Below, piece by piece: positions 4,782 to 41,558 of a DNA stretch of 64,000 nt. Under the pieces are notes generated by a model. It saw only the letters and a program-made list of their open reading frames with translations, was not told where the DNA came from and searched no databases. Source of the stretch: Salinicola peritrichatus (GTDB lineage: Bacteria > Pseudomonadota > Gammaproteobacteria > Pseudomonadales > Halomonadaceae); NCBI RefSeq assembly GCF_003206715.1, contig NZ_PZJU01000029.1, positions 45,448 through 109,447 of the forward strand, given 5' to 3'. Position numbers and translations under genes: made by a program. Within the stretch, counting starts at the first letter, position 1, and every line of letters begins with the position of its first letter.

Positions 4782-4924
4782 AGAGGGTGTCTACAAAAGG
4801 GCTGCATTCGGCAATACGGCGTTGAAATCGTCCTCACAATGCTCATTTACGACTTGTAAACTGCGCTTGTTCGGTCGATTTCGCCTTGTCTTGCCTTCAT
4901 TCGCCTGTTTTGTAAACACCCTCT
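4782..4924. mobile_element. MITE-like repeat (family A) between transporter and deoC
   Basis: 143-bp non-coding element with 17-bp terminal inverted repeats (4782-4798 and 4908-4924) that differ at one position. The interior (about 4820-4870, including the CTCATTTACGACTTGTAAAC core) matches the copies at 48197, 53390 and 62591. On either strand the ends could pair into a long stem. It lies inside what is otherwise a continuous minus-strand operon. Confidence 0.85.
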
Positions 4925-4988
4925 GAGCGGGAATGCCCGATCCGCACTTTGCCTGCGAGCTGGCGGATCATGGCCTCGATGCCGGCGA

Positions 4989-6260
4989 TCAGGCCGTTCC
5001 GGCCAGCGACAGGAAAATGCCAGCCAGTGTCGCGGACATCAAATTGGACAGCGTACCGGCGAGCACCGCCTTGAGGCCGTAACGGGCGATTTCCGGGCGA
5101 CGACTGGGTGCCAGGGTACCGAGACCGCCGAGCAGGATGGCGATCGACGACAGGTTGGCGAAACCGCACAGCGCGAACGACAGGATCGCCGCCGTATGCG
5201 CCGACATCGCCTGGCCGGTTTCCGTCACCGTGGCGTCGCCGCTGATATAGGGCGCCAGGTTGATATAGGCGACGAATTCGTTGACCACCAGCTTCTGACC
5301 GATGAACGAGCCGGCCAGGGTCGCCTCGTGCCATGGAATGCCCAGCACGAACGCCAGCGGCGAGAACAGCCAGCCGAGGATCATCGACAGGCTCAACGAA
5401 TCCACGCCGAACCAGCCGCCGATACCGCCGAGAATGCCGTCGATCATCGCGATCAGGCCGATGAAGGCCAGCAGCATGGCGCCGACGTTGGCGGCCAGCA
5501 TCAAACCGGAAGAGGCGCCGGAGGCAGCGGCGTCCAGCACGTTGGCCGGCTTGTCCTCGGCTTCCAGAATGGCCTTCGCCTGTTCGACGTGATCGTCCGG
5601 CTTTTCGGTTTCCGGCATCAGGATCTTGGCGAACAGCAGACCGCCGGGGGCGGCCATGAAGGAGGCGGCGATCAGGTACTCCATCGGGATGCCGAGTTCG
5701 GCATAACCGGCGAGAACGGAACCGGCGACGGACGCGAGCCCGCCACACATGACGGCAAATAGCTCGGATCGGGTCATGCCGGCGAGGAACGGTCGCACCA
5801 CCAGCGGTGCCTCGGTCTGGCCGACGAAGATGTTGGCCGTCGCCGACAGCGATTCGGTACGCGAGGTGCCCAATACCTTCTGCAGCGCACCGCCGAGAAT
5901 ACGCACCACCCACTGCATGATGCCTAGGTAATAGAGCACGGCCGTCAGCGACGAGAAGAAGATGATGATCGGCAGCACCTTGACGGCGAAGACGAAGCCG
6001 ACATTGCTGGGGTCGGCGAGATCACCGAACAGGAAGCCGATGCCATCGTTGGCATAGTTGATCACCTGGCCCACACCGCTGGAAAGGGTTCCCAGTACGC
6101 TTTGACCAAATGGAACGTAGAGCACGAAAGCCCCGATGCCGGCCTGAATGGCAAAAGCGCCGATGACGGTGCGCAGGCTGATCGCCCTGCGGTTGCTCGA
6201 AAAGATCAGCGCGATCAGCAGCAGCACGATGACGCCGACCAGACCCATGATGAGTGTCAT
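4989..6260 (-). CDS. Concentrative nucleoside transporter (CNT family, NupX/NupC-like)
   Basis: Inner-membrane cation-coupled nucleoside importer. 423 aa with many hydrophobic segments; family motifs seen are [12 protein letters not shown] (transport-domain GQxExP), the [11 protein letters not shown] loop, [12 protein letters not shown] and the C-terminal [14 protein letters not shown]. The sequence resembles E. coli NupX more than NupC. The start is the ATG at 6260, 8 nt after AAGGA; a longer reading from 6335 adds 25 hydrophilic residues with no support. First gene of the minus-strand operon that continues, across a repeat element, into deoC-A-B-D-cdd. It works with the divergent Tsx channel: Tsx crosses the outer membrane and this protein the inner. 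Confidence 0.93.
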
Positions 6261-6626
6261 GTTGTTGTCCTTGGTGTTGGCCTTGATGAGTCGAAAATGC
6301 ATTCCAGAGCGTGTCGGGACCGAGGAAACGGACACGAGTCATGCCGACCGCCTCATGCCGCTCGTCCACGCATTGGTCAATGCCTTTTCTTGAAAGGTTT
6401 TTAACATTTTTTGGTTTTGCTCGTCACTTATTGTTTTTATTCTTACAAGCTCATAGAGTAGTTCCCGACGAGGCGAAGGCCCATATATAGTGCTTTTGGC
6501 TTGATATGACGCTTCGGCTCGGGCCATGCGTTCGCTTTCTCTCTAACCGGCTCGATTGCAGGGGAGATGAGAAAATAGTCACAAAATGAGCATCAACACG
6601 CCATAACAACAAAGTAGGGGGATGGC
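6261..6626. other. Divergent promoter region, transporter/deo operon versus tsx
   Basis: 366 bp without a believable gene. The middle (about 6380-6450) is much richer in A/T than the flanking genes and should hold the promoters for both directions. DeoR is encoded nearby, but I could not find a convincing match to a known DeoR, CytR or CRP operator by eye, so no site is called. Confidence 0.5.
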
Positions 6627-7625
6627 ATGGTAGAAGGACTCGCACGGCCGGCGGCGGCTGAACGGTGGGCAGGCAAGGGATCTCATCTTCTGGCGTTGTC
6701 GGTCTCGTTGGGATTGGGTTCGATGACGCTGGCGGCCGCTCCGGCCTGGGCCGCCGACGATCAGGGCGACGCGCCGGTCATCGAACAGGAGACGCCCGAT
6801 GCCGGCCCCACCGAAGAGGGCTCGACGGCGGACGGACCCTATCTCTCCGACTGGTATCACCAGAATCTGACGGTCATCGGCAGCAAGAACATTCGCTTCG
6901 GCCCGCAACCGGTCGACGACATCTACCTCGAGTACGAATTCTTCGGCCGCAAGGGGCCGCTGGATCTCTACGGTTACATCGATTTCCCGAAGTTCTTCGG
7001 TACCGGCAACGGCGCGGATAGCGGCATCTTCGACAAGGGCTCGCCGGTGTTCATGGAGCTGGAGCCGCGTCTCTCCATCGACGACATGAGCGGCAAGGAT
7101 CTGAGCTTCGGCCCGTTCAAGGAGTGGTTCGTCGCCTTCGACTATATCTTCGACTGGGGGCACAACACGGCCAACCGCCAGAACACGCTCTATGCCGGTC
7201 TGGGAACGGATATCGACACCGGCTCGCCGCTGGGGCTGTCGTTCAACTTCTACAAGCGCCGCCAGTGGGAGAACTACGGCGCCGGTAACGAGCATTCCTG
7301 GGACGGCTACCGCGCGCAGCTGAATTACTCCTATCCGCTGGGGAATTTCAGCAACGGTGCCTCGCTCACCTACGTCGGTTTCACCAACTACGACTTCGGC
7401 TCCGACCTGCGTGACAGCGACGGGCCTAGCCGTACCAACGAAGCGGTGGTGGCGACCAACGTGCTGCTTTACCAGTTCACGCATCTGCGCTTCATGGCGG
7501 TGGCGCGTTACTTCCATAACGGCGGCCAATGGAATGACGACGAGGTGCTGGACTTCGGCGACGGCCCGTTCCATCTGCGCTCCACCGGCTGGGGCTACTA
7601 TTTCGGTGTCGGCTGGCAGTTCTGA
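6627..7625 (+). CDS. tsx: Nucleoside-specific outer-membrane channel Tsx
   Basis: Beta-barrel channel for diffusion of nucleosides through the outer membrane. 332 aa. It matches E. coli Tsx along its length: YLSDWYHQNLTVIGS, DIYLEYEFFGR, SPVFMELEPRLSID, LSFGPFKEWFVA, GLGTDIDTGSPL and the terminal RSTGWGYYFGVGWQF ending in Phe, as outer-membrane proteins usually do. A signal peptide with a long positively charged N-region ends around APAWA-ADD (residue 43). Unlike E. coli it has an acidic linker of about 25 residues before the barrel. AGGGGG precedes the ATG. Divergent from the nucleoside transporter. Confidence 0.95.
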   Translation: MVEGLARPAAAERWAGKGSHLLALSVSLGLGSMTLAAAPAWAADDQGDAPVIEQETPDAGPTEEGSTADGPYLSDWYHQNLTVIGSKNIRFGPQPVDDIYLEYEFFGRKGPLDLYGYIDFPKFFGTGNGADSGIFDKGSPVFMELEPRLSIDDMSGKDLSFGPFKEWFVAFDYIFDWGHNTANRQNTLYAGLGTDIDTGSPLGLSFNFYKRRQWENYGAGNEHSWDGYRAQLNYSYPLGNFSNGASLTYVGFTNYDFGSDLRDSDGPSRTNEAVVATNVLLYQFTHLRFMAVARYFHNGGQWNDDEVLDFGDGPFHLRSTGWGYYFGVGWQF

Positions 7626-7668
7626 GCGGCGCCCAGCGCTTTTCATCATGTCTCTTGCCCACGTATAT

Positions 7669-7697
7669 CGGGGAGCCTTCGGGCTCCCCGAACTTTT
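7669..7697 (+). terminator. Rho-independent terminator after tsx
   Basis: Perfect 9-bp stem CGGGGAGCC/GGCTCCCCG (7669-7677 and 7682-7690) with a TTCG tetraloop, followed by AACTTTT. It lies 43 nt after the tsx stop and separates tsx from deoR. Confidence 0.9.
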
Positions 7698-7838
7698 GCA
7701 GCCTGGATACCATCTCTCCTAACCAGCCGATTGACAGTGCCCACGCGGCATGCGCTACTTGATTGACAATATCGGCAAAGCCTTGACTAAAAAGATAAAT
7801 CCAGAGGATGCGATGAGCGGGCACAAGGGAGTTAGGCA

Positions 7839-8615
7839 ATGAACGGACGCAGCGCCGTCAGGCTCGAACGGTTGCGCGAGGCGTTGAAGAACGGCGGTAC
7901 GATTCAGCTTGCCGATGCGGCCGCGTTGTGCGGCGTCTCCGAGATGACGATCCGGCGCGACATCGCCGCCAGCAACGGTGCCATCGTCTCCTTCGGCGGT
8001 CACCTGGTGATGGCCGACAATCCTCAGTTCGCCGCGGCCTACAACCTCAATGCGCAGAAGGATCGCTACGCCGGCGCCAAGCAGCGGCTGTGCGAGGCGG
8101 CCGCGGCGATGGTCGAAGAGGGCGACACGCTGTTCATCGACTGCGGCACCACCCTGATGCCACTGTGCGCGCTACTGCCACGGGACATGACGGTGACGAT
8201 CGTCACCTACGCGCTCAACGTCGCCAACGCCTTCAGCCAGCGCGACATGCCCAACATGCGCCTCGTCGTGCTCGGTGGACTCTACTACGCCTCGTCGCAA
8301 TCCTTCGGCGGCCAGGATGTCACCACCGCGATCCGCCGACTGGGCATCAACAAAGCGTTCCTCTCCGCTGCCGGCGTCCAGGCCGACAAGGGCGCCAGCT
8401 GCTTCCATTTTCACGAGGTGGCGCCCAAGCAGGCGGCGATCGAAAACGCCGAACGCTGCATATTGGTGGTCGACGAAAGCAAGCTCGACGTGATGCGGGC
8501 CGCCTTCTTCGCCGAACTCCCCGATTTCGATGTCATGCTGACCAGCGGCGATGCCGGCCGGGCATGGCAGACGCGCGTGGCCGGAGAGGGCGCTCCCGCC
8601 ATCCAAGTCGTTTGA
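7839..8615 (+). CDS. deoR: Deoxyribose-5-phosphate-responsive repressor DeoR
   Basis: DeoR-family repressor of 258 aa, expected to control the adjacent nucleoside genes. N-terminal winged helix-turn-helix at residues 24-41 (LADAAALCGVSEMTIRRD). The C-terminal sugar-phosphate sensor domain shows LFIDCGTTL, VTYALNVANAF, LSAAGVQADKGASCF and the terminal ILVVDESKLD. It resembles E. coli DeoR itself (same SEMTIRRD helix, same AGV..KGA.CF segment), not only the broad family. AAGGGAG lies 9 nt before the ATG. Its own transcription is separated from tsx by a terminator. Confidence 0.9.
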   Translation: MNGRSAVRLERLREALKNGGTIQLADAAALCGVSEMTIRRDIAASNGAIVSFGGHLVMADNPQFAAAYNLNAQKDRYAGAKQRLCEAAAAMVEEGDTLFIDCGTTLMPLCALLPRDMTVTIVTYALNVANAFSQRDMPNMRLVVLGGLYYASSQSFGGQDVTTAIRRLGINKAFLSAAGVQADKGASCFHFHEVAPKQAAIENAERCILVVDESKLDVMRAAFFAELPDFDVMLTSGDAGRAWQTRVAGEGAPAIQVV

Positions 8616-29895: not shown

Positions 29896-30816
29896 TCACT
29901 CGATCAGCAGGTCGCGATGCCTACGCGGCTGGGCGGACTCCACTCGCGGCTCGCGGCCGCCGCGCAGGATCGAGTTACCCTCGAACAACGTGCGTTGATC
30001 GATCTCCGGTGGGTCCAGCCAGTCGGCTTCCTGCAGCTGTCCGCTCTTGCCGTAGACGGTGAGGGCGTTTTGATAGGTGACCTGGTGCACCACGGACTCG
30101 GCGATGCCGCTCTGGAGCGCCAGGCGGGCGGTCTTGGGTACGCCCAGGCAGTCCGAAATGCCCCAGTCGCAGGCACTGTCGACGATGATTCGCTCGCCGC
30201 CGTACTGCTTGAGCAGTTCGACCATGCGGGCGTTGCCCATCTTGGTCGAGGGGTAGATCGAGAAGCCGGCCCAGTAGCCTCTATCGAGGGTTTCGCGCAC
30301 GGTCTCTTCGTTGTTGTGATCGATGACCACCCAGGACGGATCGAGCCCCATCTCCTCGCAGACATCCATCGAGCGCGAGGTGCCTCGTTTCTTGTCGCGG
30401 TGCGGCGTGTGCACCATGACCGGAAGCTCGAGCTGTTTGGCCAGCGTCAGCTGGGCGCGAAAATACCTGTCCTCCAGCGGCGTCTGCTCGTCGTAGCCGA
30501 TTTCGCCGATCGCGACCACGCCCTCCTTGATCGCGAAGCGCGGCAACCACTCCATCACGCCCTCGGCCAGCGCTTCGTTGTTGGCCTCCTTGGAATTGAG
30601 GCCGATGGTGCAGTAGTGGCGGATGCCGAACTGGCCGGCGCGGAAGCGCTCCCATCCCACCAGCGCCGACAGATAATCGACATAGGTACCGACGAAGGTG
30701 CGCGGTTGCCCGACCCAGAAGGCCGGCTCGATCAGCGCCACCACGCCGGCCGCCGCCATCGCTTCGTAGTCGTCGGTGGTGCGCGAGATCATGTGCGCGT
30801 GTGGATCGATGAACAT
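29896..30816 (-). CDS. eboB: EboB, TatD-like metal-dependent hydrolase
   Basis: 306-aa TIM-barrel amidohydrolase of the TatD superfamily, the eboB position of the ebo cluster. Metal-site residues: His6/His8 in DPHAHM, Glu105 in AIGEIGYDE, His136 in VMVHTPH, His167 in VIDHNNE and the late Asp in IIVDSACDW (213). All are present, so it looks catalytically competent. In Nostoc the ebo genes are needed to move a scytonemin precursor to the periplasm; the substrate of the hydrolase is unknown. It follows eboA with 1 nt between stop and start, so the two are a tight pair. Confidence 0.88.
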   Translation of the reverse strand: MFIDPHAHMISRTTDDYEAMAAAGVVALIEPAFWVGQPRTFVGTYVDYLSALVGWERFRAGQFGIRHYCTIGLNSKEANNEALAEGVMEWLPRFAIKEGVVAIGEIGYDEQTPLEDRYFRAQLTLAKQLELPVMVHTPHRDKKRGTSRSMDVCEEMGLDPSWVVIDHNNEETVRETLDRGYWAGFSIYPSTKMGNARMVELLKQYGGERIIVDSACDWGISDCLGVPKTARLALQSGIAESVVHQVTYQNALTVYGKSGQLQEADWLDPPEIDQRTLFEGNSILRGGREPRVESAQPRRHRDLLIE

Positions 30817-30817
30817 C

Positions 30818-31684
30818 TCAGGCGGCCTCGTAGGATGACAGGTTGTCCCAGCCGAGTTGGCCGGCGTCGACCCGCGATACCATCTCCGGCGTCGCCGCCA
30901 GCAGGTGACGCGCCTGATCGGTGCCGGCGCTGGTCAGCGCCAGGGTGGCGGCGAGCCGTTCGGCCGGGGAGCCGCCCAGCGCTCGTTCGAGGGCGGCATA
31001 GGCCGCTGCGCTGTCGGCATGCGGGCCGACGCAGCGCCACAACTCCGGCGTGACCGCGCGGCCGGCCGCCCAGCGCTCCTGGGCGTAGTCGATCAGGATG
31101 CGGGCCAGCTCGGGATTGCTGCGCGCATCCAGCCCGACGATCGGCGCCAGCCGGCTACCGATGAACAGCGCTTTCAACACCATGTGATTCCAGCGGTGGA
31201 TATCGAAATGATCGCGGGGATAGGGGTTGCCATGGGCGATCGCCTCGAACACCGCACGCATGTTGGAGCGCAGCCCTTCACCGACCTCGAAGGCCAGACT
31301 TTCGGGCTGCGGGTAGAGCGCCAGACCGCGATAGAGGGCGATCAGTTCGCGGGCATCGGCGGTGCGCACCAGGTCCTTGAACACGGCCGCGAAGGGGCGC
31401 TTGCCGCGGAAGGCGAGCAGGCCGGCGATGCGTGCCGCGCCGTCCAGGCTCCAGTTGGTCGGATGCCAGCCCGGATGGCAGCGTTCCGCCAATGCCAGGT
31501 CCTCCGCCGACAGTTGCAGATCCGCCTTGCCCAGCCGCCGGGGCACCAATCCCAGAAACAGGTGCAGTGTCTGCTCGGAAGCTCCCGCCTCGAGTCGCGC
31601 CAGTTGCGACTCGAACCAGCCGCGCTCCGGGCCGGCTTGTCGGGTTACCCAGTCACGCAACAGCGCTTGCGTTGTAACGACCAT
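30818..31684 (-). CDS. eboA: EboA-domain protein
   Basis: 288-aa cytosolic protein of unknown fold and activity, recognised as EboA by its position before eboB and by segments such as GWHPTNWSLDGAARIAGLLA, DHFDIHRWNHMVLKALFIGS and DIHRWNHM; it is rich in predicted alpha-helix and has no known catalytic motif. The start at 31684 is preferred because AGGA lies 7 nt upstream; an ATG at 31699 would add five residues. Divergent from eboF, with 295 bp between their starts. EboA is the most enigmatic subunit of the cluster. Confidence 0.8.
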   Translation of the reverse strand: MVVTTQALLRDWVTRQAGPERGWFESQLARLEAGASEQTLHLFLGLVPRRLGKADLQLSAEDLALAERCHPGWHPTNWSLDGAARIAGLLAFRGKRPFAAVFKDLVRTADARELIALYRGLALYPQPESLAFEVGEGLRSNMRAVFEAIAHGNPYPRDHFDIHRWNHMVLKALFIGSRLAPIVGLDARSNPELARILIDYAQERWAAGRAVTPELWRCVGPHADSAAAYAALERALGGSPAERLAATLALTSAGTDQARHLLAATPEMVSRVDAGQLGWDNLSSYEAA

Positions 31685-31905
31685 GTCATCGTCCTGCATC
31701 GATTGTCCGAAAAATCACTCTATCGACAGCCGAATCGAATCCCCAACCTCAATTATCTGGCCAATTGAAACGGTGAATTCGGGGCATGACTTCCCTGAAA
31801 AGTGTGGAATTCATGCCGACGACCTCGCCGCAATGACCAGTTTCATTCATGACGATTTCGTAAATTGCACGCCGATCAAGCGTAACGATTGAACGTGAGA
31901 ATCCG

Positions 31906-31920
31906 GCCTGCTATGCAGGC
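31906..31920 (+). promoter_or_regulatory. Short perfect hairpin in the eboF leader
   Basis: GCCTGC TAT GCAGGC (31906-31920) followed by TTTACATT, 60 nt before the eboF ATG in the eboA/eboF divergent spacer. It resembles a weak terminator or attenuator; the stem is only 6 bp. The rest of this 295-bp spacer is A/T-richer and must contain promoters for both directions. Confidence 0.35.
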
Positions 31921-31979
31921 TTTACATTCCGTTTCGAATAACATCAAAAACACGTCTTCGGCGTGGTGGATGAGGTCCG

Positions 31980-33416
31980 ATGTACAAGGCACTGGTGATA
32001 CTGGCCGTGGGGTTGACGCCGAGGCTGGTGGGCGAATACACGCCCCATCTCGAGCGTTTGGCCGAGCGCGGTGGCATGCGGCCGCTGAACACGGTGACGC
32101 CGGCGGTCACCTGCAGCGCCCAGGCGACGCTGCTGACCGGGCTGACGCCGGGAGAACACGGCGCGGTGGCCAATGGCTGGTATTTTCGCGAGCTGTCGGA
32201 AATCTGGCTGTGGCGCCAGTCCAACCGGCTGGTCGCCGGCGAAAAGATCTGGGAGGCCGGCAAGCGCCGAAATCCCGACTTCACCTGCGCCAAGCTGTTC
32301 TGGTGGTACAACATGTATTCGACCGCCGACTGGAGCGCCACGCCGCGGCCGATGTATCCCGCCGACGGTCGCAAACTGCCCGATCATTACAGCTACCCGC
32401 CGGAACTGCACGACGAACTCGACGCCAAGCTGGGGACCTTCCCGCTGTTCGCCTTCTGGGGGCCGATGGCCGATATCTCCTCGAGCCGCTGGATCAGTGA
32501 CGCCACCTTGCATGTCATGGAGACACGGGACCCGACGCTGACACTGACCTACCTGCCGCATCTCGACTACAACCTGCAGCGGCTGGGACCGGATACTTCA
32601 CGTCCCGAACTGCAACGCGACCTGCGCGATCTCGATGCGCTGTGCGGCGAGCTGATCGATGCCGCCGAGCGGGACGGCCGGCGAGTGATCGTGGTTTCCG
32701 AATACGGCATCACGCCGGTGCGCGAGGCCGTTCATATCAATCGCGCCCTGCGCGAGGCCGGCCTGATCGCGGTGCGCCGGGAGCGTGAGCGGGAACAGCT
32801 CGATCCCGGCGCTTCCCGGGCCTTCGCGGTGGCCGATCACCAGGTGGCTCATGTCTATGTCCGGGATCCGGCGGCGATCCCCCAGGTCAGGTCGCTGCTG
32901 GAAGCGCTGGATGGTGTCGAGGCGGTATGGGGCGAGACGGAGAAACGCAGCCGAGGTCTCGATCATCCCAACGCCGGGGAGCTGGTGGCGATCGCCGAGC
33001 CGGATCGCTGGTTCAGCTACTATTTCTGGCTGAATGATGCCCGGGCGCCGGACTATGCGCGTACCGTTGACATCCACCGCAAACCCGGTTACGACCCGGT
33101 GGAGCTGTTCTTCGATCCGGCGCTCAAGTCGCCGAAGCTGTCGGCGGGCTGGCGGCTGTTCAAGCGCAAGTTGGGGATGCGCCAACTGCTCGACGTGATC
33201 TCGCTCAACGATACCGCGCTGGTCAAGGGCTCCCACGGTCGCATCACCGACGATCCGTCGATGGGCCCGCTGGTGATCTCCTCACAGGCGGAGCTGCTGC
33301 CGCCGGGGGCGCTCGAGGCCACCGATTTCAAGGCGCTGGTATTGGCCCACGTTTTCGGAGCCGCGGAGAATACCGCTGCCGATCCCGCGGCGGCAGTCTC
33401 GGCGGCGGAGAAGTGA
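31980..33416 (+). CDS. eboF: EboF, alkaline-phosphatase-fold (nucleotide pyrophosphatase-like) protein
   Basis: 478 aa, type I phosphodiesterase/nucleotide pyrophosphatase relative. The nucleophile region TPAVTCSAQATLLTGLTPGEHG (Thr44) is clear, and LTYLPHLDYNLQRLGPD and KGSHGRI are the later site segments. By eye several usual metal ligands are changed: the first-strand DGL motif reads VGL and the DHGM motif reads EYGI. No signal peptide is obvious. GAGG precedes the ATG at 31980. It is the only ebo gene on the plus strand, divergent from eboA and convergent with eboC. Confidence 0.85.
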   Translation: MYKALVILAVGLTPRLVGEYTPHLERLAERGGMRPLNTVTPAVTCSAQATLLTGLTPGEHGAVANGWYFRELSEIWLWRQSNRLVAGEKIWEAGKRRNPDFTCAKLFWWYNMYSTADWSATPRPMYPADGRKLPDHYSYPPELHDELDAKLGTFPLFAFWGPMADISSSRWISDATLHVMETRDPTLTLTYLPHLDYNLQRLGPDTSRPELQRDLRDLDALCGELIDAAERDGRRVIVVSEYGITPVREAVHINRALREAGLIAVRREREREQLDPGASRAFAVADHQVAHVYVRDPAAIPQVRSLLEALDGVEAVWGETEKRSRGLDHPNAGELVAIAEPDRWFSYYFWLNDARAPDYARTVDIHRKPGYDPVELFFDPALKSPKLSAGWRLFKRKLGMRQLLDVISLNDTALVKGSHGRITDDPSMGPLVISSQAELLPPGALEATDFKALVLAHVFGAAENTAADPAAAVSAAEK

Positions 33417-33450
33417 AGCCGGATTCCGGCACTCGGCGGGATGGCTGCGG

Positions 33451-34341
33451 TCAGGTGCCGGAAGTCAGGCGCTGCAGCGCCAGGGTGGCGACGAAGGCGA
33501 GGATGCCGAGGAGCGCCGGCAGCACAGCGTTCATCGCCGCCATCAGCGTGGCGTCGAACAGCGAGATGGCGGCGATCAGACCGACGACGGCGCGTGGCAC
33601 GTCGCCGGGCCCGCGCCGGTGAAGACGCGACAGACACCAGCCACCCCAGCAGAGATAGACGAGCCACAGACACAGCGCCAACAACGAAGGCGCCGGGCCG
33701 GTCAGCATCGCCGCCAGCATGATGACGACGGGTATGACCATGACCCCCAGCGGCCAGACGGCTCCCAGCCGATCGTAGACCTCCTGGCGCGCGGCGTAGG
33801 TGAGTCCGACCACGTGGCAGGCCAGGCCGAGGGCGCCCCAAACGAGCGGGTCATTCAATGCGCCGCCCAGCGCCAGCGCCGCGACGAGATACGTCAACAG
33901 CCGGCAAGCGCCCATCAGTAGCGGGCTCCAGCCGATGCGCTTGTGCCACCAGTCGTAGCCGAGAATGGCGGCGATCAGTGCCAACCCGGCGTAGCCGGTA
34001 GCCGCGTTGCAGAGAAACAGCAGCAGGCTGGCCACGACCAGCATCGCCGCACCGAGCAGGGCGACACTGAGTCGGTCGACATCACCGCGGGGAATGGGAC
34101 GGTCGGCGCGCTCGCGAGCGTCGATTTCGGCGTCGCAGGCATCGTTCAGATACATGCCGCCGAGATAGCACAGCGTCAGGGCCGCGAAAAGCGCCAGCGC
34201 GGGATCGAACGACCAACTGGCGCCGGCCAGCACCGCGCCGGCCAGGGCGTTGCTCCACACCGTGGGCAGATTGGAGACCCGCCCCAGTTCCAGCCACACG
34301 TGATGGGAACGCCGGTGTAGGGGCTGTTGCCGTTTCAGCAC
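33451..34341 (-). CDS. eboC: EboC, UbiA-family prenyltransferase-like membrane protein
   Basis: 296-aa polytopic UbiA-superfamily protein. The N-terminal WLELGRVSNLPTVWSNALAG is typical, and the first Asp-rich motif is N66-D67-x2-D70-x3-D74 (YLNDACDAEID). The expected second Asp-rich motif after the fifth helix reads RQEVYDRLGA, with only one Asp, so classic Mg-diphosphate binding may be changed. The only in-frame start near the homology is GTG at 34341; it sits in the loop of a hairpin and has no close ribosome site. It lies 26 nt after eboE and converges with eboF (34 nt). Confidence 0.85.
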   Translation of the reverse strand: MLKRQQPLHRRSHHVWLELGRVSNLPTVWSNALAGAVLAGASWSFDPALALFAALTLCYLGGMYLNDACDAEIDARERADRPIPRGDVDRLSVALLGAAMLVVASLLLFLCNAATGYAGLALIAAILGYDWWHKRIGWSPLLMGACRLLTYLVAALALGGALNDPLVWGALGLACHVVGLTYAARQEVYDRLGAVWPLGVMVIPVVIMLAAMLTGPAPSLLALCLWLVYLCWGGWCLSRLHRRGPGDVPRAVVGLIAAISLFDATLMAAMNAVLPALLGILAFVATLALQRLTSGT

Positions 34342-34370
34342 GGACCGGGATGAAACCGCAACAACCCCTA
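34318..34370 (-). promoter_or_regulatory. 20-bp stem hairpin spanning eboE end and eboC start
   Basis: 34318-34337 and 34351-34370 are inverted repeats of 20 bp with two mismatches (arms TAGGGG...GTTTCA). In the minus-strand mRNA the 5' arm holds the eboE stop codon TAG and the AGGGG that could serve as ribosome site, while the GTG start of eboC lies in the 13-nt loop. There is no U-run, so translational coupling or mRNA processing is likelier than termination. Confidence 0.7.
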
Positions 34371-35555
34371 GGCGCCGAGCTGTTTTCTGACCCAGCGCAG
34401 TTCCCGCGCCACGGCTTTTTCTACGCTCTGGCTGCGCAGTGTCTCCGGTAGCACTTGCCATGTGTAGGTCTCCACTTCCAGATGCGGTGATAGCGGCTGC
34501 TGGCGATGCAGCGCCAGGATCTCGATGAGGAACGCCCGGGTGGTTTCGAACGGCGGGATTTCGGCGACGAAGATCGGCACGTGGAAATGGACGCGCCACT
34601 CTTCGCCGTCGGCCCGCTCCGGATCGTCGAGCGCCTCGGGCAGATCGGCGTAACGCGTCAACCCGGTGGCGTTCTTGGCGACCACCTGATGTAGATAGGT
34701 CGGCTCGCAAAAGCGGGCGAGCAATTCGCGAGCGGCGGCATCGAGCGCGGGGACCCGCAGTGCCGCGCTCAGCTGCAGCTTGTGGATCGGGATGCCGGCC
34801 CGACGCAGCGCCTCGATGCTCGCGACGGGATCCTCGAATTCCACCGCGGCATGACAGACGTCGTAGCACACGCCCAGATGTCGCGGGAGGGCGGCGCGGG
34901 CTTCGTCGGCAGAGAGTCCCGTCAACTCGCGCAGCCGCTCGACCGCGGTTTCGGCAAACAAATGGTCGCGAAAGAACGCCACCGTCTCGTCGATGGTCTC
35001 GAGGAAGCAGCAAGGCTCGGGCTCCAGCGCGATGGCGACGGTAACGTCCATCTGCCGGGCCAGCTTGATGCAGTGAGCGGCGCACTTGAGCAGGTTGTCC
35101 GTCATGGCGGCCTCGGCGCCCTCGGCGAGAGGCTTGTAGGTGCCGGGCACAGTGCTCAGGCTGACGCTCTCGCCGGCTGCGGCCAGCTCCGTCATCAGAT
35201 CCGCCAGCCAGCAGGTGTAGTCGAGTCTTGCCCGCTGCTTCCAGTCGGGCTGATACACTGCCTGCTTCACCGGCACGCCGTGGAACGGCCCGAAGGGAAA
35301 GCCGTTCATGGTCACCACGCGATAGTCCTCGCGAGCCAGGATCTCCTTGAGTTCGGCACGCGCATCGGGGGAGCGCAACTCCTCGAGGGCCTGGGCGGAG
35401 AGGCGCAGGCCGACGGCAAAGGTTTCATTCGGCGCGACGGCCTGACGGACTTTCTTGACGGGCCCGAGCAGGGCTTCGCGCACCGCTAGCCAGGTCTGGG
35501 TCGGATGGATGTTGAGACAGTAGGTCAGGTAACCGAGATCATCGCTGAGTTGCAT
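34368..35555 (-). CDS. eboE: EboE, sugar-phosphate isomerase-like metabolite traffic protein
   Basis: 395-aa TIM-barrel protein of the xylose-isomerase-like family in the eboE position. Segments that identify it: LGYLTYCLNIHPTQTW at the N-terminus, TMNGFPFGPFHG, LSTVPGTYKP, IALEPEPCCFLETIDE and LGVCYDVCHAAVEFEDP, the last two giving Glu, Asp and His residues placed as metal ligands in this fold. Natural substrate unknown; in cyanobacteria it is one of the ebo genes needed for precursor export. The start overlaps the eboD stop by 17 nt, so translation is coupled. Confidence 0.88.
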   Translation of the reverse strand: MQLSDDLGYLTYCLNIHPTQTWLAVREALLGPVKKVRQAVAPNETFAVGLRLSAQALEELRSPDARAELKEILAREDYRVVTMNGFPFGPFHGVPVKQAVYQPDWKQRARLDYTCWLADLMTELAAAGESVSLSTVPGTYKPLAEGAEAAMTDNLLKCAAHCIKLARQMDVTVAIALEPEPCCFLETIDETVAFFRDHLFAETAVERLRELTGLSADEARAALPRHLGVCYDVCHAAVEFEDPVASIEALRRAGIPIHKLQLSAALRVPALDAAARELLARFCEPTYLHQVVAKNATGLTRYADLPEALDDPERADGEEWRVHFHVPIFVAEIPPFETTRAFLIEILALHRQQPLSPHLEVETYTWQVLPETLRSQSVEKAVARELRWVRKQLGA

Positions 35556-36834
35556 CGCCGTGGGCCTCCTCGCGTAGCCATTCGATCGCCTCGATCATAT
35601 GGGTCTCATCGATATGATGGACGTCGATGCCCCGGCCGATGCCGGACAGCAGCGTGACGGTGAGCTCGCCGCCGAGATGTTCCTGGAACTCCCCGAGACC
35701 CGCCAGAATGGCAGGCTGGCCGTCGTCACCGATCTCCAGCAACTGGGCATGGAAGACCGGCAGGCCCAGACGCTTCAACAGCCACACCACGCGCCATTCT
35801 GCGCCGGCGGGCAGCAGACCCTTGAGCACGGAATAGCGAGCATCGAGCGCGATACCGATGGCGACGGCTTCACCGTGGCTGATGCCGTGATGAGTCAGCG
35901 CCTCGAGCTTGTGCGCCGACCAGTGACCGAAATCCAGCGGGCGCGACGAACCCTGCTCGAACGGATCGCCACCACGGCCGATCTGCTGCATGTGCAGCTC
36001 GGCGCTGCGGCGGATCATGATCTCCTCGGTGCGTGGATCGAATTCGGCCAGCGAATCGGCGTTGGCCTCCAGCCAGTCGAAGAAGGCGCCATCGCGGATC
36101 AGCGCCACCTTGATCGCCTCGGCAATGCCGGCGAGCCGGTCGCGGCGCGAAAGCGTGCACAGGAAGTCGAAGTCGTTGAGCACGGCCCACGGCGGGGCGA
36201 AGGTGCCGATGAAGTTCTTGCAACCCTGGAAATTGACGGCGTTCTTGACCCCGACGCCGCTGTCGTTCTGCGACAGAACGGTGGTCGGTAGCCGGATCAG
36301 GCGCACGCCGCGATGACCCATGGCGGCCGCGAGGCCGAGCGCATCCAGCGCCGCACCGCCGCCGATGACGATGACATAGGCGTGGCGATCGACGCCGTAG
36401 CGCCGGATGTCTTCCAGCACGCCGTTGACCGTCTCCAGGTCTGCCTTGATCGCTTCCCCGCCGGGTACGGTGATCGGCGCCGCGAGCAGGGTCATCCGGC
36501 TGGCGTGGGCGGCGAAGTAGGCGTTGATCCGCGTTTCCAGATCCGGCCAGGTAGCGGCGATGCCGGCGTCGACGTAGATCAGACAACGATGAGTCTTGCG
36601 CGGCTCCTTGCGCGAGATGACGTCGGCCAGCAGAGGATTGTCGGGAGAAAAGATCTCTCGGGTAAACGCGATGGGATAATCGTAAGCGACGGAAAATCGC
36701 TGCCAGTGGACTTCCGACGATGACGAGATTTGCGAGGTGTCGAGTTGTCGTACCGGGTTCGGTTGCATCGCAAAAGATGGGGGTTCGATAGCGACATTGC
36801 CATCGATCGAAAACGATAAAGCGGGCCGGTTCAT
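35539..36834 (-). CDS. eboD: EboD, 3-dehydroquinate synthase-like protein
   Basis: 431 aa, homologous to 3-dehydroquinate synthase and first gene of eboD-eboE-eboC. NAD loop GGGAALD (158-164), Lys197 in VGVKNAVN, metal ligands Glu239 (AEAIK), His304 and the HGEAVAIG His320 are kept, so it should bind NAD and a divalent metal. VGV replaces the usual VGG near Lys197. It may be a sugar-phosphate cyclase with another product than the shikimate enzyme; the real aroB is expected elsewhere. The ATG at 36834 is 33 nt after a strong terminator hairpin; an internal ATG at 36768 is an alternative start. Confidence 0.88.
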   Translation of the reverse strand: MNRPALSFSIDGNVAIEPPSFAMQPNPVRQLDTSQISSSSEVHWQRFSVAYDYPIAFTREIFSPDNPLLADVISRKEPRKTHRCLIYVDAGIAATWPDLETRINAYFAAHASRMTLLAAPITVPGGEAIKADLETVNGVLEDIRRYGVDRHAYVIVIGGGAALDALGLAAAMGHRGVRLIRLPTTVLSQNDSGVGVKNAVNFQGCKNFIGTFAPPWAVLNDFDFLCTLSRRDRLAGIAEAIKVALIRDGAFFDWLEANADSLAEFDPRTEEIMIRRSAELHMQQIGRGGDPFEQGSSRPLDFGHWSAHKLEALTHHGISHGEAVAIGIALDARYSVLKGLLPAGAEWRVVWLLKRLGLPVFHAQLLEIGDDGQPAILAGLGEFQEHLGGELTVTLLSGIGRGIDVHHIDETHMIEAIEWLREEAHGDATQR

Positions 36835-37128: not shown

Positions 37129-38604
37129 TCATCCTTTCAGCGGCGACGGAGTGACATCGGCGGGAATCGGGCAGCGATAGGGTTCCCGGCGCGTGGCGGC
37201 GTCCAGCTCCTCGCGCGCCTGGGCCAGGGTGGCGGGGTTTTCCAGTAGCGCGACGGCGGTGCCGGCCATCACCTTGGCCGCCTGCAGCATTCCCTTGTGG
37301 CCCAGCGAACTGCGTCCCTGCGCGACCACCTGCCAGGTGTGCAGTGGCGTGCCCAGCGCGAAGCAGTTGACGTAGCACTGGGCCGTTGGCACCACCCAAC
37401 TCACGTCACCTACATCGGTGGAGCCGTACATCAGTGCTTCGCTGGCGCTGTACGGCGCGAGATCCTCGACCAGCGCCTTGTCGGCGAGCCCGTCGACGTA
37501 CGCTTCGGCGGCCTCGCCGCCGGCGCTGACGATGTTGGCGTAGGTCGTGCGCAGGTCATCTTCGCTGACGGTTGCCTTGATCCGCTCGGCGTAGGCCTTT
37601 TCTTCCGCATCGTGGCGCGGCGGGCCGAACGCCTCGAACTGGGCTTGCATCACGCTTTCCAGCGTGCGGTTCGGACGATACCCGGAGCACGCCTTGTCGA
37701 ACACCATCTCGACCTCGGTCCCGGTCATCAGCGCCGCGCCCTCGGCGATCTTCTGGATGCGCTCGAAGATCGCCTGGACATCGTTCATGCGCCTGGCGCG
37801 CATCAGGTAGAGCGCCTCGGCCTCGGCCTGGACCACGTTCGGCGAAGCGCCGCCGGTGCGGGTGATCGAGTAGTGGAAGCGGGCGTCCGGCACTACGTGC
37901 TCGCGCAGATAGTTGGCGCCGACGTTCATCAGTTCCACCGCATCCAGCGCGCTGCGGCCGAGGTGCGGCGAGTTGGCGGCGTGGGCGGAGGTGCCCTTGA
38001 AGCGGAAGTAGGCCTGGATATTGGCCAGGGTCGGGGTCGAGAAGATGGCGTTGAAGGCCTGCGGGTGCCAGGTGAGGGCGGCATCGACATCGTCGAAAAC
38101 GCCTTCGCGCACCATGAAGGTCTTGCCGGAGCCCCCCTCCTCGCCGGGGCAGCCGTAGAAGCGGATCGTGCCGGACAGACCCTGCTGCGCTCGCCATTCT
38201 TCCAGATAGTCGCGCACGCCGACGGCGGCAGCGAGCGCGGCGACGCCAAGCAGGTTATGCCCGCAGCCATGACCGTTGCCGCCGGGGATCAGCGGTTCCG
38301 CGTCGCTCGCTTCACCGCGCTGGCTGAGTCCGGCCAGGGCGTCGTATTCACCGAGCAGGGCGATGACCGGCTTGCCGCTGCCATAGCTGGCAACGAAGGC
38401 CGTATCGATGCCGGCGATGCCGCGTTCGACCTGAAACCCTTCGGCTTCCAGCGCTTCGCTCAGTGTCGACGCCGAGCGACCCTCCTCGAAACGCGTCTCG
38501 GCGTATTCCCATACCTGGTTGGCGTAGTCGATGAAGCGATCGCGCTTGTCTTCGATCAAGGCATCGAGTCGCTGGGTCGTGGTGTCGATAGCAGTTGCGT
38601 CCAT
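37129..38604 (-). CDS. abgB: p-Aminobenzoyl-glutamate hydrolase subunit B
   Basis: 491-aa M20 metallopeptidase. With AbgA it cleaves p-aminobenzoyl-glutamate, a folate breakdown product, to p-aminobenzoate and glutamate. Metal-site motifs are LLGEYDALAG, GNGHGCGHNLLG and YGCPGEEGGSG; the dimerisation domain has GTSAHAANSPHLGRSALDAVEL. The ATG at 38604 is chosen for the GAGGAG upstream; a TTG at 38622 is unlikely. Last gene of abgT-abgA-abgB. A 13-bp direct repeat (TTTCTCGCGATCA at 37103 and 37119) overlaps its stop codon. Confidence 0.92.
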   Translation of the reverse strand: MDATAIDTTTQRLDALIEDKRDRFIDYANQVWEYAETRFEEGRSASTLSEALEAEGFQVERGIAGIDTAFVASYGSGKPVIALLGEYDALAGLSQRGEASDAEPLIPGGNGHGCGHNLLGVAALAAAVGVRDYLEEWRAQQGLSGTIRFYGCPGEEGGSGKTFMVREGVFDDVDAALTWHPQAFNAIFSTPTLANIQAYFRFKGTSAHAANSPHLGRSALDAVELMNVGANYLREHVVPDARFHYSITRTGGASPNVVQAEAEALYLMRARRMNDVQAIFERIQKIAEGAALMTGTEVEMVFDKACSGYRPNRTLESVMQAQFEAFGPPRHDAEEKAYAERIKATVSEDDLRTTYANIVSAGGEAAEAYVDGLADKALVEDLAPYSASEALMYGSTDVGDVSWVVPTAQCYVNCFALGTPLHTWQVVAQGRSSLGHKGMLQAAKVMAGTAVALLENPATLAQAREELDAATRREPYRCPIPADVTPSPLKG

Positions 38605-38618
38605 GGGGTTCTCTCTCC

Positions 38619-39965
38619 TCAAAGGGTCTCGGTACGTCGGCGGCGTGGTACAGCGTCGTCTGCCTGCAGTGCCAGATGCGCCAGGGTGCGAATGGCCAGC
38701 GGAAGCACGTCCTCGTCGAAATCGAAGCGCTGATGGTGGTGGCCGGCGGCGAGATCGGTGCCGAACACCATGTAGGTGGCCAGGCCGCCACGCTCGCGCA
38801 CGCGCTGCATCATGGTGGTGGCGTCCTCGGAGCCGGAAGGGCGATTCTCGACGGGAACTACGCTGTCGATGCCGGGAAGGCCGGCAATCCGTTCCTGTAT
38901 GAACGCGACCAGCTCGGGGCTGGGCTCGCAGTTGCGCGCCTCGCCGGCGAGGGAGTAGGTCATCTCCACGCCCTGCATCGCTGCCGCGCCGCGCAGCACG
39001 TCCAGCGCCCGGCGCTGCATCTCGTCGTTGATCTCGCTGGTCTCGCCACGGGTCTCGAACTTGAGCGTCGCGGTGGCCGGCACCACGTTGCGGCCGCTGC
39101 CGGCGTTGAGTACGCCGACGTTGATGCGCGAGGCGCCGGCACTGTGACGCGGGATGGCGTGCAGGCCGAGCGCCGCCTGGGCGGCGGCCAGCAGCGCATT
39201 GTTGCCGGCCTCCGGGTTGGCGCCGGCATGGGCGGGCACGCCGGTAAAGGTGACGTCGAGCTTGGTGGTGGCGAGATAGCCGTTGTGGCCGCAGATGACG
39301 GTCCCCTTGGCGACGCCGGTGCCGATATGGGTGGCGATGAAGATATCGGCGTCGTCGAGGACGCCGGCTTCGACCATCGACCTGGCACCGCGCACGCCCT
39401 CTTCGGCGGGTTGGAAGATCAGCTTGATCCGTCCGTTCAGTTGCGATTTCAGCTCGACGAACAGACGCGCCAGGCCGAGCCCGATGGTGGTGTGACCGTC
39501 GTGGCCGCAGGCGTGCATCATGCCGTCGTTGCAGGAGGCGAACCCCTCGCGGACGGGGCGGTGGTCTTCGTCGCGGGACTCGTCGAGATCGAGCGCATCC
39601 AGGTCGACGCGGTAGGCGAATGTCGGCCCCGGGCGACCGGTATCCAGCTCGGCCACCACGCCGGTATAGCCGCCGGCGAGTGCCGGCAGCCAGCGTTCGA
39701 CGGCGCCTTGGTCGCGGGCGCGCTCGAGCGCTCGGGCCAGCACTTCGGGCTCGGGGACGCCCATGCGGCTGTCGGCGTCGATCACGTCACGACCGGCGCT
39801 GACCCGATAGCCGAGCCGCTCCAGCTCTTCGGCGACGATCGAGGCGGTGCGGAATTCGACCCAGCCCGATTCGGCATGACGGTGAAAATCGCGCCGCCAG
39901 GTCTTCAGCTGCGGCGACAGGGCCGCGATCGCGGTTTCCAGATCTGGCGCGGTGATGGTGCTCAT
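38619..39965 (-). CDS. abgA: p-Aminobenzoyl-glutamate hydrolase subunit A
   Basis: 448-aa M20 peptidase, partner of AbgB in a heteromeric hydrolase. It shows FRRDFHRHAESGWVEFRT-type N-terminal features (TWRRDFHRHAESGW), the FAYRVDLDAL metal-bridging Asp, MMHACGHDGHTTIGL, FQPAEEGVRGA and the dimerisation-domain GVPAHAGANPEAGNNAL. Slightly longer than E. coli AbgA (436 aa). It lies 57 nt after abgT and 14 nt before abgB, so the three genes form one operon under the divergent LysR regulator. Confidence 0.93.
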   Translation of the reverse strand: MSTITAPDLETAIAALSPQLKTWRRDFHRHAESGWVEFRTASIVAEELERLGYRVSAGRDVIDADSRMGVPEPEVLARALERARDQGAVERWLPALAGGYTGVVAELDTGRPGPTFAYRVDLDALDLDESRDEDHRPVREGFASCNDGMMHACGHDGHTTIGLGLARLFVELKSQLNGRIKLIFQPAEEGVRGARSMVEAGVLDDADIFIATHIGTGVAKGTVICGHNGYLATTKLDVTFTGVPAHAGANPEAGNNALLAAAQAALGLHAIPRHSAGASRINVGVLNAGSGRNVVPATATLKFETRGETSEINDEMQRRALDVLRGAAAMQGVEMTYSLAGEARNCEPSPELVAFIQERIAGLPGIDSVVPVENRPSGSEDATTMMQRVRERGGLATYMVFGTDLAAGHHHQRFDFDEDVLPLAIRTLAHLALQADDAVPRRRRTETL

Positions 39966-40022
39966 GGTGAAGTTCTCCGTCTGTTCGGTGTCGTCGTGCG
40001 TCTTTTCACATCCGGGCCTTCG

Positions 40023-41558
40023 TCAGGACGGCAGATAGGTCGTGATGCCCGGGCCGTAGGGCAGCCCCAGCAGATAGAACGCGGTCAGCAGCAGGATCCA
40101 GATGCCGAGGAACGCCAGGGTGTAGGGCAGCATCAGCGACATCAGCGTGCCGAGGCCGGCGTTCTTGTCGTATTTCCGGATGAAGGTGAGCACCACGATC
40201 ATGTACGGGTTGAGCGGCGAGATGATATTGGTCGAGGAGTCGGCGATGCGGTAGGCGACCTGCACGAACGCGGGGTGATAGCCGAGCTGCATGAACATCG
40301 GCACGAACACCGGCGCTTCCAGCGCCCATTTGGCGGAGCCGCTGAAGATCAGCAGGTTCATGCAGGCAGTGAACACGATGTAGCAGAGGATGACCGGGAA
40401 CCCGGTGAAGTCCATGGCCGTCAGCAGGTCGGCGCCATTGACCGCGATCCAGGTGCCGATGTGCGACCAGTTGAACCAGGCGATGAACTGGGAAGCGGCA
40501 AAGATCAGCACGATATAGCTGCCCAGGTCGCGCATCGCTTCGGCCATGTTCTCGGAGATGTCGCGGGAACGCTTGATACGGCCCACGGTGATACCCCAGG
40601 TCACGCTGACGGTGATGAAGAAGAACAGGATGATCGGGATGATGCCGCTCAGGAATGGTGACGGGATCAGGCCGCCATCCGGGCCGCGCAGCGGTGAATC
40701 GGGCCAGAACAGCAGCGTGGCGATGGCGACGACGTAGACCAGTGCGGCGATGCCGGCATTGCGCAGACCCCGACCGGCGTTTTCCGGTTCATTGTTTTCG
40801 ACCTTCTCGACATCGCCCTGATAGGTGCCGAGGCGCGGTTCGATGACGCGTTCGGTGACGACGGCGGCCACGATGGTGAGCACGAACACGGAAACGCAGT
40901 TGAAGTACCAGTTGTCCACCGGGGTCACGGTCATGTCGCTGCTGACGATGCGTGCCGCTTCGGTCGAGATCCCGGAAAGCAGGGCATCGGTGCCGACGAT
41001 CAGCAGGTTGGCGGTGAACCCCGCGCCGGCGCTGGCAAAACCGAGCGCCAGCCCTGCGATCGGATGGCGTCCCAGCGAGTGATAGACCATGGCGGCCAGC
41101 GGTGGCAGCAGGATCAGCGAGGCGTCGGAGGCGACGTTCATCATGATGCCGGTGAACGCGACGGTATAGGTCACCAGACGCTTGGGCGCCGACAGGATCG
41201 TATGGCGGATCAGGGTTTCCAGCAGACCCAGCTTTTCGGCCAGGCCGATGCCAAGCATCATCGACAGCACTAGGCCGAGCGGGGCGAAGCCGGTGAAGTT
41301 ATCGAGCATGGAGTCGAGAATGAACCGGATGCCCTCGCCGGAGACCAGGCTGCGGATCGCTTCCACTTCCCCGCTGCCGGGGTGTTCGACGGAGGCACCC
41401 GCAGCGGCGAACAGTGCCGAGGCGATCAGTACGACCAGAGCGAGAATCACGAAGATCATGAACGGGTCGGGGAGACGATTGCCGAAACGCTCGATAGCGT
41501 TCAGCAACCGGATCGACAGCCGCGGGCGCGCGGCGTCGCGGGAGGCGGTCGCTTCCAT
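40023..41558 (-). CDS. abgT: p-Aminobenzoyl-glutamate transporter AbgT
   Basis: 511-aa inner-membrane protein with about ten hydrophobic helices, AbgT family. Characteristic segments: RLPDPFMIFVILALVVL, GFAPLGLVLSMMLGIGLAEKLGLL, MMNVASDASLILLPPLAAMV, FTANLLIVGTDALLSGIST, and IADSSTNIISPLNPYMIVVL, which contains the conserved NxIxPLxPY loop. Members import p-aminobenzoyl-glutamate or export antifolates such as sulfonamides. Here it leads the hydrolase operon, whereas in E. coli it is the last gene, so uptake of the dipeptide for breakdown is the likely role. Confidence 0.93.
   Translation of the reverse strand: MEATASRDAARPRLSIRLLNAIERFGNRLPDPFMIFVILALVVLIASALFAAAGASVEHPGSGEVEAIRSLVSGEGIRFILDSMLDNFTGFAPLGLVLSMMLGIGLAEKLGLLETLIRHTILSAPKRLVTYTVAFTGIMMNVASDASLILLPPLAAMVYHSLGRHPIAGLALGFASAGAGFTANLLIVGTDALLSGISTEAARIVSSDMTVTPVDNWYFNCVSVFVLTIVAAVVTERVIEPRLGTYQGDVEKVENNEPENAGRGLRNAGIAALVYVVAIATLLFWPDSPLRGPDGGLIPSPFLSGIIPIILFFFITVSVTWGITVGRIKRSRDISENMAEAMRDLGSYIVLIFAASQFIAWFNWSHIGTWIAVNGADLLTAMDFTGFPVILCYIVFTACMNLLIFSGSAKWALEAPVFVPMFMQLGYHPAFVQVAYRIADSSTNIISPLNPYMIVVLTFIRKYDKNAGLGTLMSLMLPYTLAFLGIWILLLTAFYLLGLPYGPGITTYLPS

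Follow-up and report, generated by a model that had tools for sequence, protein, structure and literature searches.

What the ebo gene cluster makes, and by what mechanism its product acts, has been a standing question since 2016; the cluster is found across many phyla of bacteria and in the plastids of certain algae. The question was taken up at a locus of Salinicola peritrichatus, within a stretch of 64,000 nucleotides (assembly GCF_003206715.1, contig NZ_PZJU01000029.1, positions 45,448 to 109,447 of the forward strand) that is called the window below and whose numbering is used throughout. Positions 29896-36834 hold six ebo genes, arranged B-A-F'-C-E-D (F' denotes the reversed eboF): eboB (29896..30816, minus strand; TatD-like metal-dependent hydrolase), eboA (30818..31699, minus; EboA-domain protein), eboF (31980..33416, plus; alkaline-phosphatase-fold protein), eboC (33451..34371, minus; UbiA-type prenyltransferase, with a long open frame upstream and an uncertain start codon), eboE (34368..35555, minus; xylose-isomerase-like TIM-barrel protein) and eboD (35539..36834, minus; EboD-clade sugar phosphate cyclase). 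An earlier note on this DNA had recognised six clustered eboA-F homologues in a gammaproteobacterium, with eboF as the only one reversed relative to the others; the gene coordinates bear this out, and the host is Salinicola.

The explanation favoured here, which we regard as moderately probable, is that ebo is a self-contained cassette making a membrane lipid, a prenylated cyclitol, that serves a process outside the cytoplasm. EboD would cyclise a heptose phosphate, probably sedoheptulose 7-phosphate (SH7P), and so give a C7 cyclitol. This would be tailored by EboE, which has an isomerase/dehydratase fold, and by the metal hydrolase EboB, and it would be prenylated by EboC in the cytoplasmic membrane. 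Binding or assembly would fall to EboA and to EboF, which lacks the usual two-metal site, and the lipid would support the extracytoplasmic process either by carrying a precursor or by helping an exported oxidoreductase. Because ebo encodes both a cyclase and a prenyltransferase, the cluster very probably makes its own compound; that it handles a compound made elsewhere, as the earlier note had suggested, is only one option among others. A prenylated cyclitol was proposed as the ebo product by Yurchenko et al. 2016 (PMC5133447) and a lipid carrier role by Klicki et al. 2018 (PMC6282210); the present comparison strengthens the case for the cyclitol and brings in a possible type of client.

The cyclase slot and the other ebo proteins

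EboD matched PRK06203 with 560.4 bits (cut-off 333) and falls in the dehydroquinate synthase (DHQS) Pfam families. At the positions checked for NAD, metal and core catalysis, all 44 aligned EboD sequences were of the superfamily type, and H281, R298, D301, H308 and H386 were present in every one. The DHQS substrate-site residue set (K250, N268 and a DKK segment near K356, in what we take to be the usual numbering, as for His275 below) was absent: the K250 position was H281 and the N268 position D301 in 44/44, and the DKK segment was replaced by F383 (44/44), R, Q or K at 384 and E385 (43/44), followed by H386. The genome's own AroB, which is encoded separately from eboD, has the K, the N and DKK; EboD as the housekeeping AroB was rejected on this residue pattern and the separate normal aroB. 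D301 and H386 instead match the Asp and His of the SH7P cyclase ValA (EEVS type; presumably D281 and H360 of that protein), where DHQS has Asn and another residue. The meaning of these fingerprint residues was reportedly set out by Kean et al. 2014. An active-site residue fingerprint that distinguishes SH7P cyclases is described in PMC4426668.

The occupant of the cyclase slot was compared in nine actinobacterial loci from plasmid records, hand-picked from 31 or more EboE-bearing actinobacterial records. EboD was found in none of the nine loci fetched. In seven (L176, L177, L179-L183) an inositol-3-phosphate synthase stands in a row with an SCO3242-type prenyltransferase, a sugar phosphate isomerase/epimerase, an EboA domain, TatD, EboE and EboF; in L184 only EboB, EboE and EboF were within reach, and in L178 only EboE. 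Ten non-actinobacterial loci tested in parallel all had EboD, and inositol-phosphate synthase was found in none of these. Two of the synthases were tested by Pfam and both were confirmed in both domains (101-162 bits); against the NCBIfam model of the mycothiol enzyme the same two scored 33.8 and 43.6 bits, far below the cut-off of 638. As two different cyclase families occupy one slot, the slot would make a cyclitol. Inositol-phosphate synthase takes glucose 6-phosphate and, to our knowledge, is unable to feed the shikimate pathway. Literature searches listed no publication on the swap of EboD and inositol-phosphate synthase, and the word inositol is missing from the main texts of PMC5133447, PMC6282210 and PMC9235831. 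The solitary EboE of L178 (Streptomyces NBC_01244; 8968-10146) adjoins type II polyketide genes.

For the remaining proteins, profile searches gave results of graded strength. EboE scored 432.7 bits against NF035939 (cut-off 250) and EboA 158.1 bits against the EboA domain model NF035938 (cut-off 50); EboA reached 234.3 bits against the full-family model NF035937 (cut-off 320) and EboC 111.1 bits against its top match, the EboC model NF035940 (cut-off 250), both below threshold. General families were matched by EboC (PF01040, 65.5 bits, cut-off 34.2), EboB (TatD PF01026, 62.6 bits, cut-off 27) and EboF (Phosphodiest PF01663, 212.7 bits, cut-off 23); no ebo-specific model was found for EboB or EboF. 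The assignment of EboC rests on position and gene order beside its sub-cut-off score, and its plasmid counterparts are labelled by NCBI only as 'UbiA family prenyltransferase'. Its Asp-rich motif N76 D77 D80 D84 was invariant in 31/31 aligned sequences, digeranylgeranylglyceryl phosphate synthase is its nearest relative with a solved structure, and the host genome carries two further UbiA-superfamily genes besides eboC.

EboB has the full TatD-like ligand set, HxH (H6, H8), E105, H136, H167 and D217, each at least 95% conserved in 80 sequences (gaps excluded); these residues are presumably the metal ligands. Its best solved relative was 3guw (E 4.5e-20). In the EboE alignment many acidic and His positions are invariant, and a sequence search at E 0.01 gave no solved relative. 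A hand-made list of 27 loci with EboE and other ebo genes out of reach, 11 of them actinobacterial and some on short contigs, was rejected as a set of ebo clusters and served only as a contrast set; a short overlapping EboC match in eight of the 27 was judged spurious, and the 11 actinobacterial loci had no inositol-phosphate synthase of the ebo kind. Neighbours at such loci (e.g. L122, L135, L141, L156) look catabolic by eye and might reveal the chemistry of EboE.

EboF is the best conserved of five aligned proteins, with a mean column identity of 62% (37-49% in the others). In the alignment to a solved nucleotide pyrophosphatase/phosphodiesterase and phosphonoacetate hydrolase (2gsn, 1ei6), V10, Q200, E241 and Y242 fall on four of the six metal ligands, which we take to be D, D, H, D, H and H, with T as nucleophile. 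With gaps excluded, these replacements were found in 78/79, 82/82, 81/82 and 82/82 sequences respectively, T44 (79/79), D196 (82/82) and H419 (83/83) being kept; the same residues were seen in six further proteins, Streptomyces and Deinococcus among them. EboF thus lacks the two-metal ligand set of type I phosphodiesterase/nucleotide pyrophosphatase, and the residue pattern speaks against an ordinary two-metal mechanism. The published reading is a hydrolase of phosphate substrates, in passages on EboF that leave the ligand residues undiscussed (PMC5133447).

Neighbours at other loci and the use of the product

Recurrent neighbours were sought at the best 80 of 586 confirmed loci, picked by similarity to gammaproteobacterial EboE. 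From sixty loci with four or more ebo genes, five were removed (four halomonad, one duplicate) and the remaining 55 non-halomonad loci were counted, 'near' meaning on the fetched stretch, up to ~10 kb from eboE. A Pfam census covered 229 of 391 neighbour open reading frames (ORFs; nearest, 120-700 aa, 53 loci) in two sets, with the 25 commonest families listed per set. GSDH was the top family (10/115 and 10/114 ORFs), followed among those listed by cytochrome c (4 and 5), NUDIX (2 and 5, the five of the second set being isopentenyl diphosphate (IPP) isomerase type 1), methyltransferases, VTT and TMEM220; transporter families were rarer than GSDH. Counted per locus (n = 55), GSDH was near 18, cytochrome c near 13 (all 13 alongside GSDH), TMEM220 near 11, IPP isomerase near 7 (by clustering; five of the seven confirmed by NCBIfam) and any of the four near 22.

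From 238 GSDH matches in 199 phylum genomes, a chance of ~0.8% per 27-kb stretch was calculated (4-Mb genome assumed); the binomial comparison of this value with the 18/55 observed treats the loci as independent, which they are not. GSDH was near 18/55 ebo loci and 0/27 EboE-only loci (Fisher p 0.0004), a contrast confounded by taxonomy. The GSDH neighbours fall into two subfamilies, and many of them start, as judged by eye, with a segment that resembles an export signal. A ScyD/ScyE family protein lies directly upstream in two Streptomyces loci (243 and 257 bits, cut-off 80), and none was within reach in the other seven actinobacterial loci. Nostoc ScyE is a periplasmic protein of the beta-propeller clan (PMC4870267). 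Different versions of ebo thus repeatedly adjoin an exported propeller-type protein, yet far from always.

Three further neighbours were recorded. Twelve loci have a TMEM220-type membrane protein on the strand opposite to eboD and just upstream of it (L070, L075, L084-L086, L089, L090, L092, L093, L099, L106, L144; two Pfam-confirmed, two matches counted in the census, the remainder by tblastn). A ferritin-like PF12902 protein is near ebo in five loci (L173, at 4879-7961, L087, L095, L129 and L139), four of which also have a large unknown protein. On Deinococcus plasmids without an annotated eboA, a short protein lies in the cluster (L175, 7806-8144; L186, 7824-8150); that of L175 had no Pfam match, and it is possibly the eboG of Deinococcales in PMC5133447.

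At the Salinicola locus, no GSDH, IPP isomerase, TMEM220 or ScyE-type protein was found in the window, and GSDH of the ebo-linked type was also not found in the 24 other halomonad loci. The host genome has two GSDH matches, one weak and one that we take to be YliI-like (~23-29% identity to the ebo-linked kind), neither near ebo. For the ScyE family, no match exceeded the cut-off in 275 family genomes, weak partial matches occurring in 7/275.

Several of these observations weigh against a prenylated cyclitol lipid with a role outside the cytoplasm. EboD has H308 in 44/44 sequences at the position where ValA has Pro (His275 of DHQS), and with the EboD profile five dehydroquinate synthases rank above ValA by whole-sequence score. 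As inositol-phosphate synthase takes glucose 6-phosphate, the cyclitol would differ between ebo versions. E241 of EboF could still bind metal, the change from D to E being conservative. None of GSDH, cytochrome c, IPP isomerase and TMEM220 was in reach at 33/55 loci, and a linked partner in Salinicola was rejected, the GSDH matches being distant from ebo and the ScyE family below cut-off. Ubi-297, a flavobacterial EboC, farnesylates 8-hydroxyquinoline-2-carboxylic acid, an aromatic acceptor, in vitro (PMC9235831). For the Nostoc ebo mutants, the account in PMC6282210 reports no lipid-conjugated monomer, and eboD was not among the genes tested.

The same account reports that five ebo genes were tested in Nostoc, that every one was required for scytonemin and that the monomer was confined to the cytoplasm (PMC6282210). 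It is tentatively possible that ebo aids metabolite export, as proposed by Klicki et al. 2018: a glycolipid-like product would take a precursor of other origin across the inner membrane and would have no redox role. Chemically this overlaps with the prenylated cyclitol lipid and differs in the use of the product, and the two are not mutually exclusive. The variable flanks of the halomonad cassettes would agree with it, as they leave no cargo gene fixed beside ebo; against it, none of the six ebo proteins matched a transporter family in the NCBIfam/Pfam-type profile searches, GSDH leads the listed neighbour families while transporter families are rarer, and no cargo was identified in an analysis in which the host genome was not searched for a cargo pathway.

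A somewhat unlikely version of the cyclitol explanation is that ebo serves no export and instead manufactures a prenylated cyclitol lipid acting as cofactor, electron carrier or anchor for exported oxidoreductases, above all beta-propellers of the ScyE or GSDH type, the cyclase slot being interchangeable between EboD and inositol-phosphate synthase. On this view ScyE would stay unactivated in every ebo deletion made in Nostoc, and the monomer that builds up in the scyE deletion would build up in these for that reason. Between the two uses of a prenylated cyclitol, carriage is favoured by the localisation data and a cofactor role by the neighbours.

That ebo is a small secondary-metabolite pathway, with a secreted isoprenoid-cyclitol that is itself protective (Yurchenko et al. 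2016), we consider unlikely. A cassette that unites a cyclase, a prenyltransferase and tailoring enzymes would suit it, as would the patchy distribution (15/369 class and 3/199 phylum genomes with EboE, the own genome included in both) and an empty site in one Salinicola genome; a separate end product, however, fails to explain the block of scytonemin and the build-up of monomer in the Nostoc mutants as reported in PMC6282210, and the cassette has no resistance or export gene. Very improbable is a prenylation of aromatic acids by EboC as by Ubi-297, with EboD merely feeding the shikimate pathway: the assay of Ubi-297 on quinoline acids (PMC9235831) and the Pfam families of EboD would fit, but the slot swaps with inositol-phosphate synthase, the DHQS residues K250 and DKK are missing from EboD, and the genome has a normal aroB.

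Order, boundaries and origin of the cassette

The eboD and eboE genes overlap by 17 bp and eboE and eboC by 4 bp, eboA and eboB are 1 bp apart, and eboF and eboC converge with 34 bp between them; three transcription units are plausible and fit this spacing. The divergent eboA-eboF spacer (31700..31979) measures 280 bp, and 179-474 bp in 22 other halomonad loci; it is a possible common promoter region. An operator shared between this spacer and the region upstream of eboD was rejected, as the alignments contained no clear block.

EboE was found in 25/275 family genomes and in 2/24 genera, namely in 17/18 genomes of Salinicola and in eight of a second genus (g15). Gene order was compared across these genomes, as the earlier note had proposed, and order and strands were identical in 24/24 other halomonad ebo loci, with no scattering of the six genes, which places the gene order beyond chance. 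The inversion of eboF, which the note had singled out, proved no peculiarity: it is shared with these 24 loci and with some alphaproteobacteria, and inverted ebo genes are already described in PMC5133447. In two halomonad loci ebo frames are interrupted, through decay or sequencing error (eboE in L049 of G147; several genes in L045 of G189).

The one Salinicola genome without EboE, G176, provides a natural empty site. Its LysR, pirin, LpxL, DUF4870, abgB, abgA and abgT genes keep the same order without ebo, the abgB and DUF4870 matches lying 97 bp apart, and EboF was found neither there nor in four g15 genomes without EboE that were queried. As the flanking genes also vary among halomonad loci, ebo is here a unit of exactly six genes with incidental flanks. 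The LpxL-like acyltransferase/DUF4870 and abg flanks had been placed outside the cluster in the earlier note, and the empty site is the direct proof; DUF4870, the LpxL-like acyltransferase and abg were accordingly rejected as members, being together without ebo in G176 while ebo has other neighbours elsewhere. In the window, homologues of abgB, abgA and abgT, so named after the earlier note, lie beside the cassette at 37129-41558 (the first gene matches the peptidase M20 type) and are followed by a LysR-type gene at 41788. In one Salinicola subgroup (L044-L047) the cassette adjoins curli-type genes, so named by eye, rather than LpxL/DUF4870.

The order B-A-F'-C-E-D was also found in nine non-halomonad loci among 95 examined, eight of them alphaproteobacterial (L084-L088, L090, L095, L144) and one gammaproteobacterial (L075), and on plasmids of Salipiger, Roseivivax and Ketogulonicigenium. 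A FastTree tree of EboB+D+E+F was built from 77 loci and midpoint-rooted, with the loci of these plasmids left out; the 22 halomonad loci in it formed one clade with support 1.00, embedded among loci of the Roseobacter type and of Limibaculum and Rhodomicrobium. The simplest reading of the tree is that halomonad ebo was acquired horizontally from an alphaproteobacterial lineage. One gammaproteobacterium (G615) has two EboE genes (L073 and L080); a full set of ebo genes accompanies one of them, and the other is solitary, at 34% identity.

Comparison with known ebo systems

The near-fixed, sharply bounded Salinicola cassette, with a natural empty-site relative, would suit simple genetic testing, and the comparison makes the ebo question testable at three points: the cyclitol (from EboD or inositol-phosphate synthase), the metal-altered EboF and exported oxidoreductases as clients. 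As in the known ebo operon (PMC5133447, PMC6282210), all six families are clustered in Salinicola. For known operons PMC5133447 already describes orders that depart from ABCDEF, for instance DECABF, as well as the inversion of single genes; the words Halomonas, Gammaproteobacteria and Salinicola are absent from its main text. Unlike the published ebo clusters, the Salinicola cassette has EboC and EboA scores under the NCBIfam full-family cut-offs, and no scy genes were seen near it. According to PMC6282210, the EDB cluster of Pseudomonas fluorescens NZI7 has extra signal-peptide genes and upstream CPS-type ABC genes; the neighbours of the Salinicola cassette are LpxL-like/DUF4870 and abg.

The Streptomyces SCO3242-type operon (L176, L177, L179-L183) shares the EboA domain, the EboB-like TatD, EboE, EboF and the EboC-like UbiA protein, and differs in having inositol-phosphate synthase and sugar phosphate isomerase/epimerase without EboD. 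Closest in layout are the ebo loci of Sulfitobacter, Roseobacter, Salipiger, Roseivivax and Ketogulonicigenium, with the order B-A-F'-C-E-D as in Salinicola; the Sulfitobacter and Roseobacter loci adjoin the halomonads in the FastTree tree, and five loci (L084, L085, L086, L090, L144) have GSDH near ebo, unlike the 24 halomonad loci and the window. The Salinicola locus is a real, complete and ordinary ebo member, with a layout common to halomonads and several alphaproteobacteria; as a further member of a known group, its interest lies in the comparison that it prompted.

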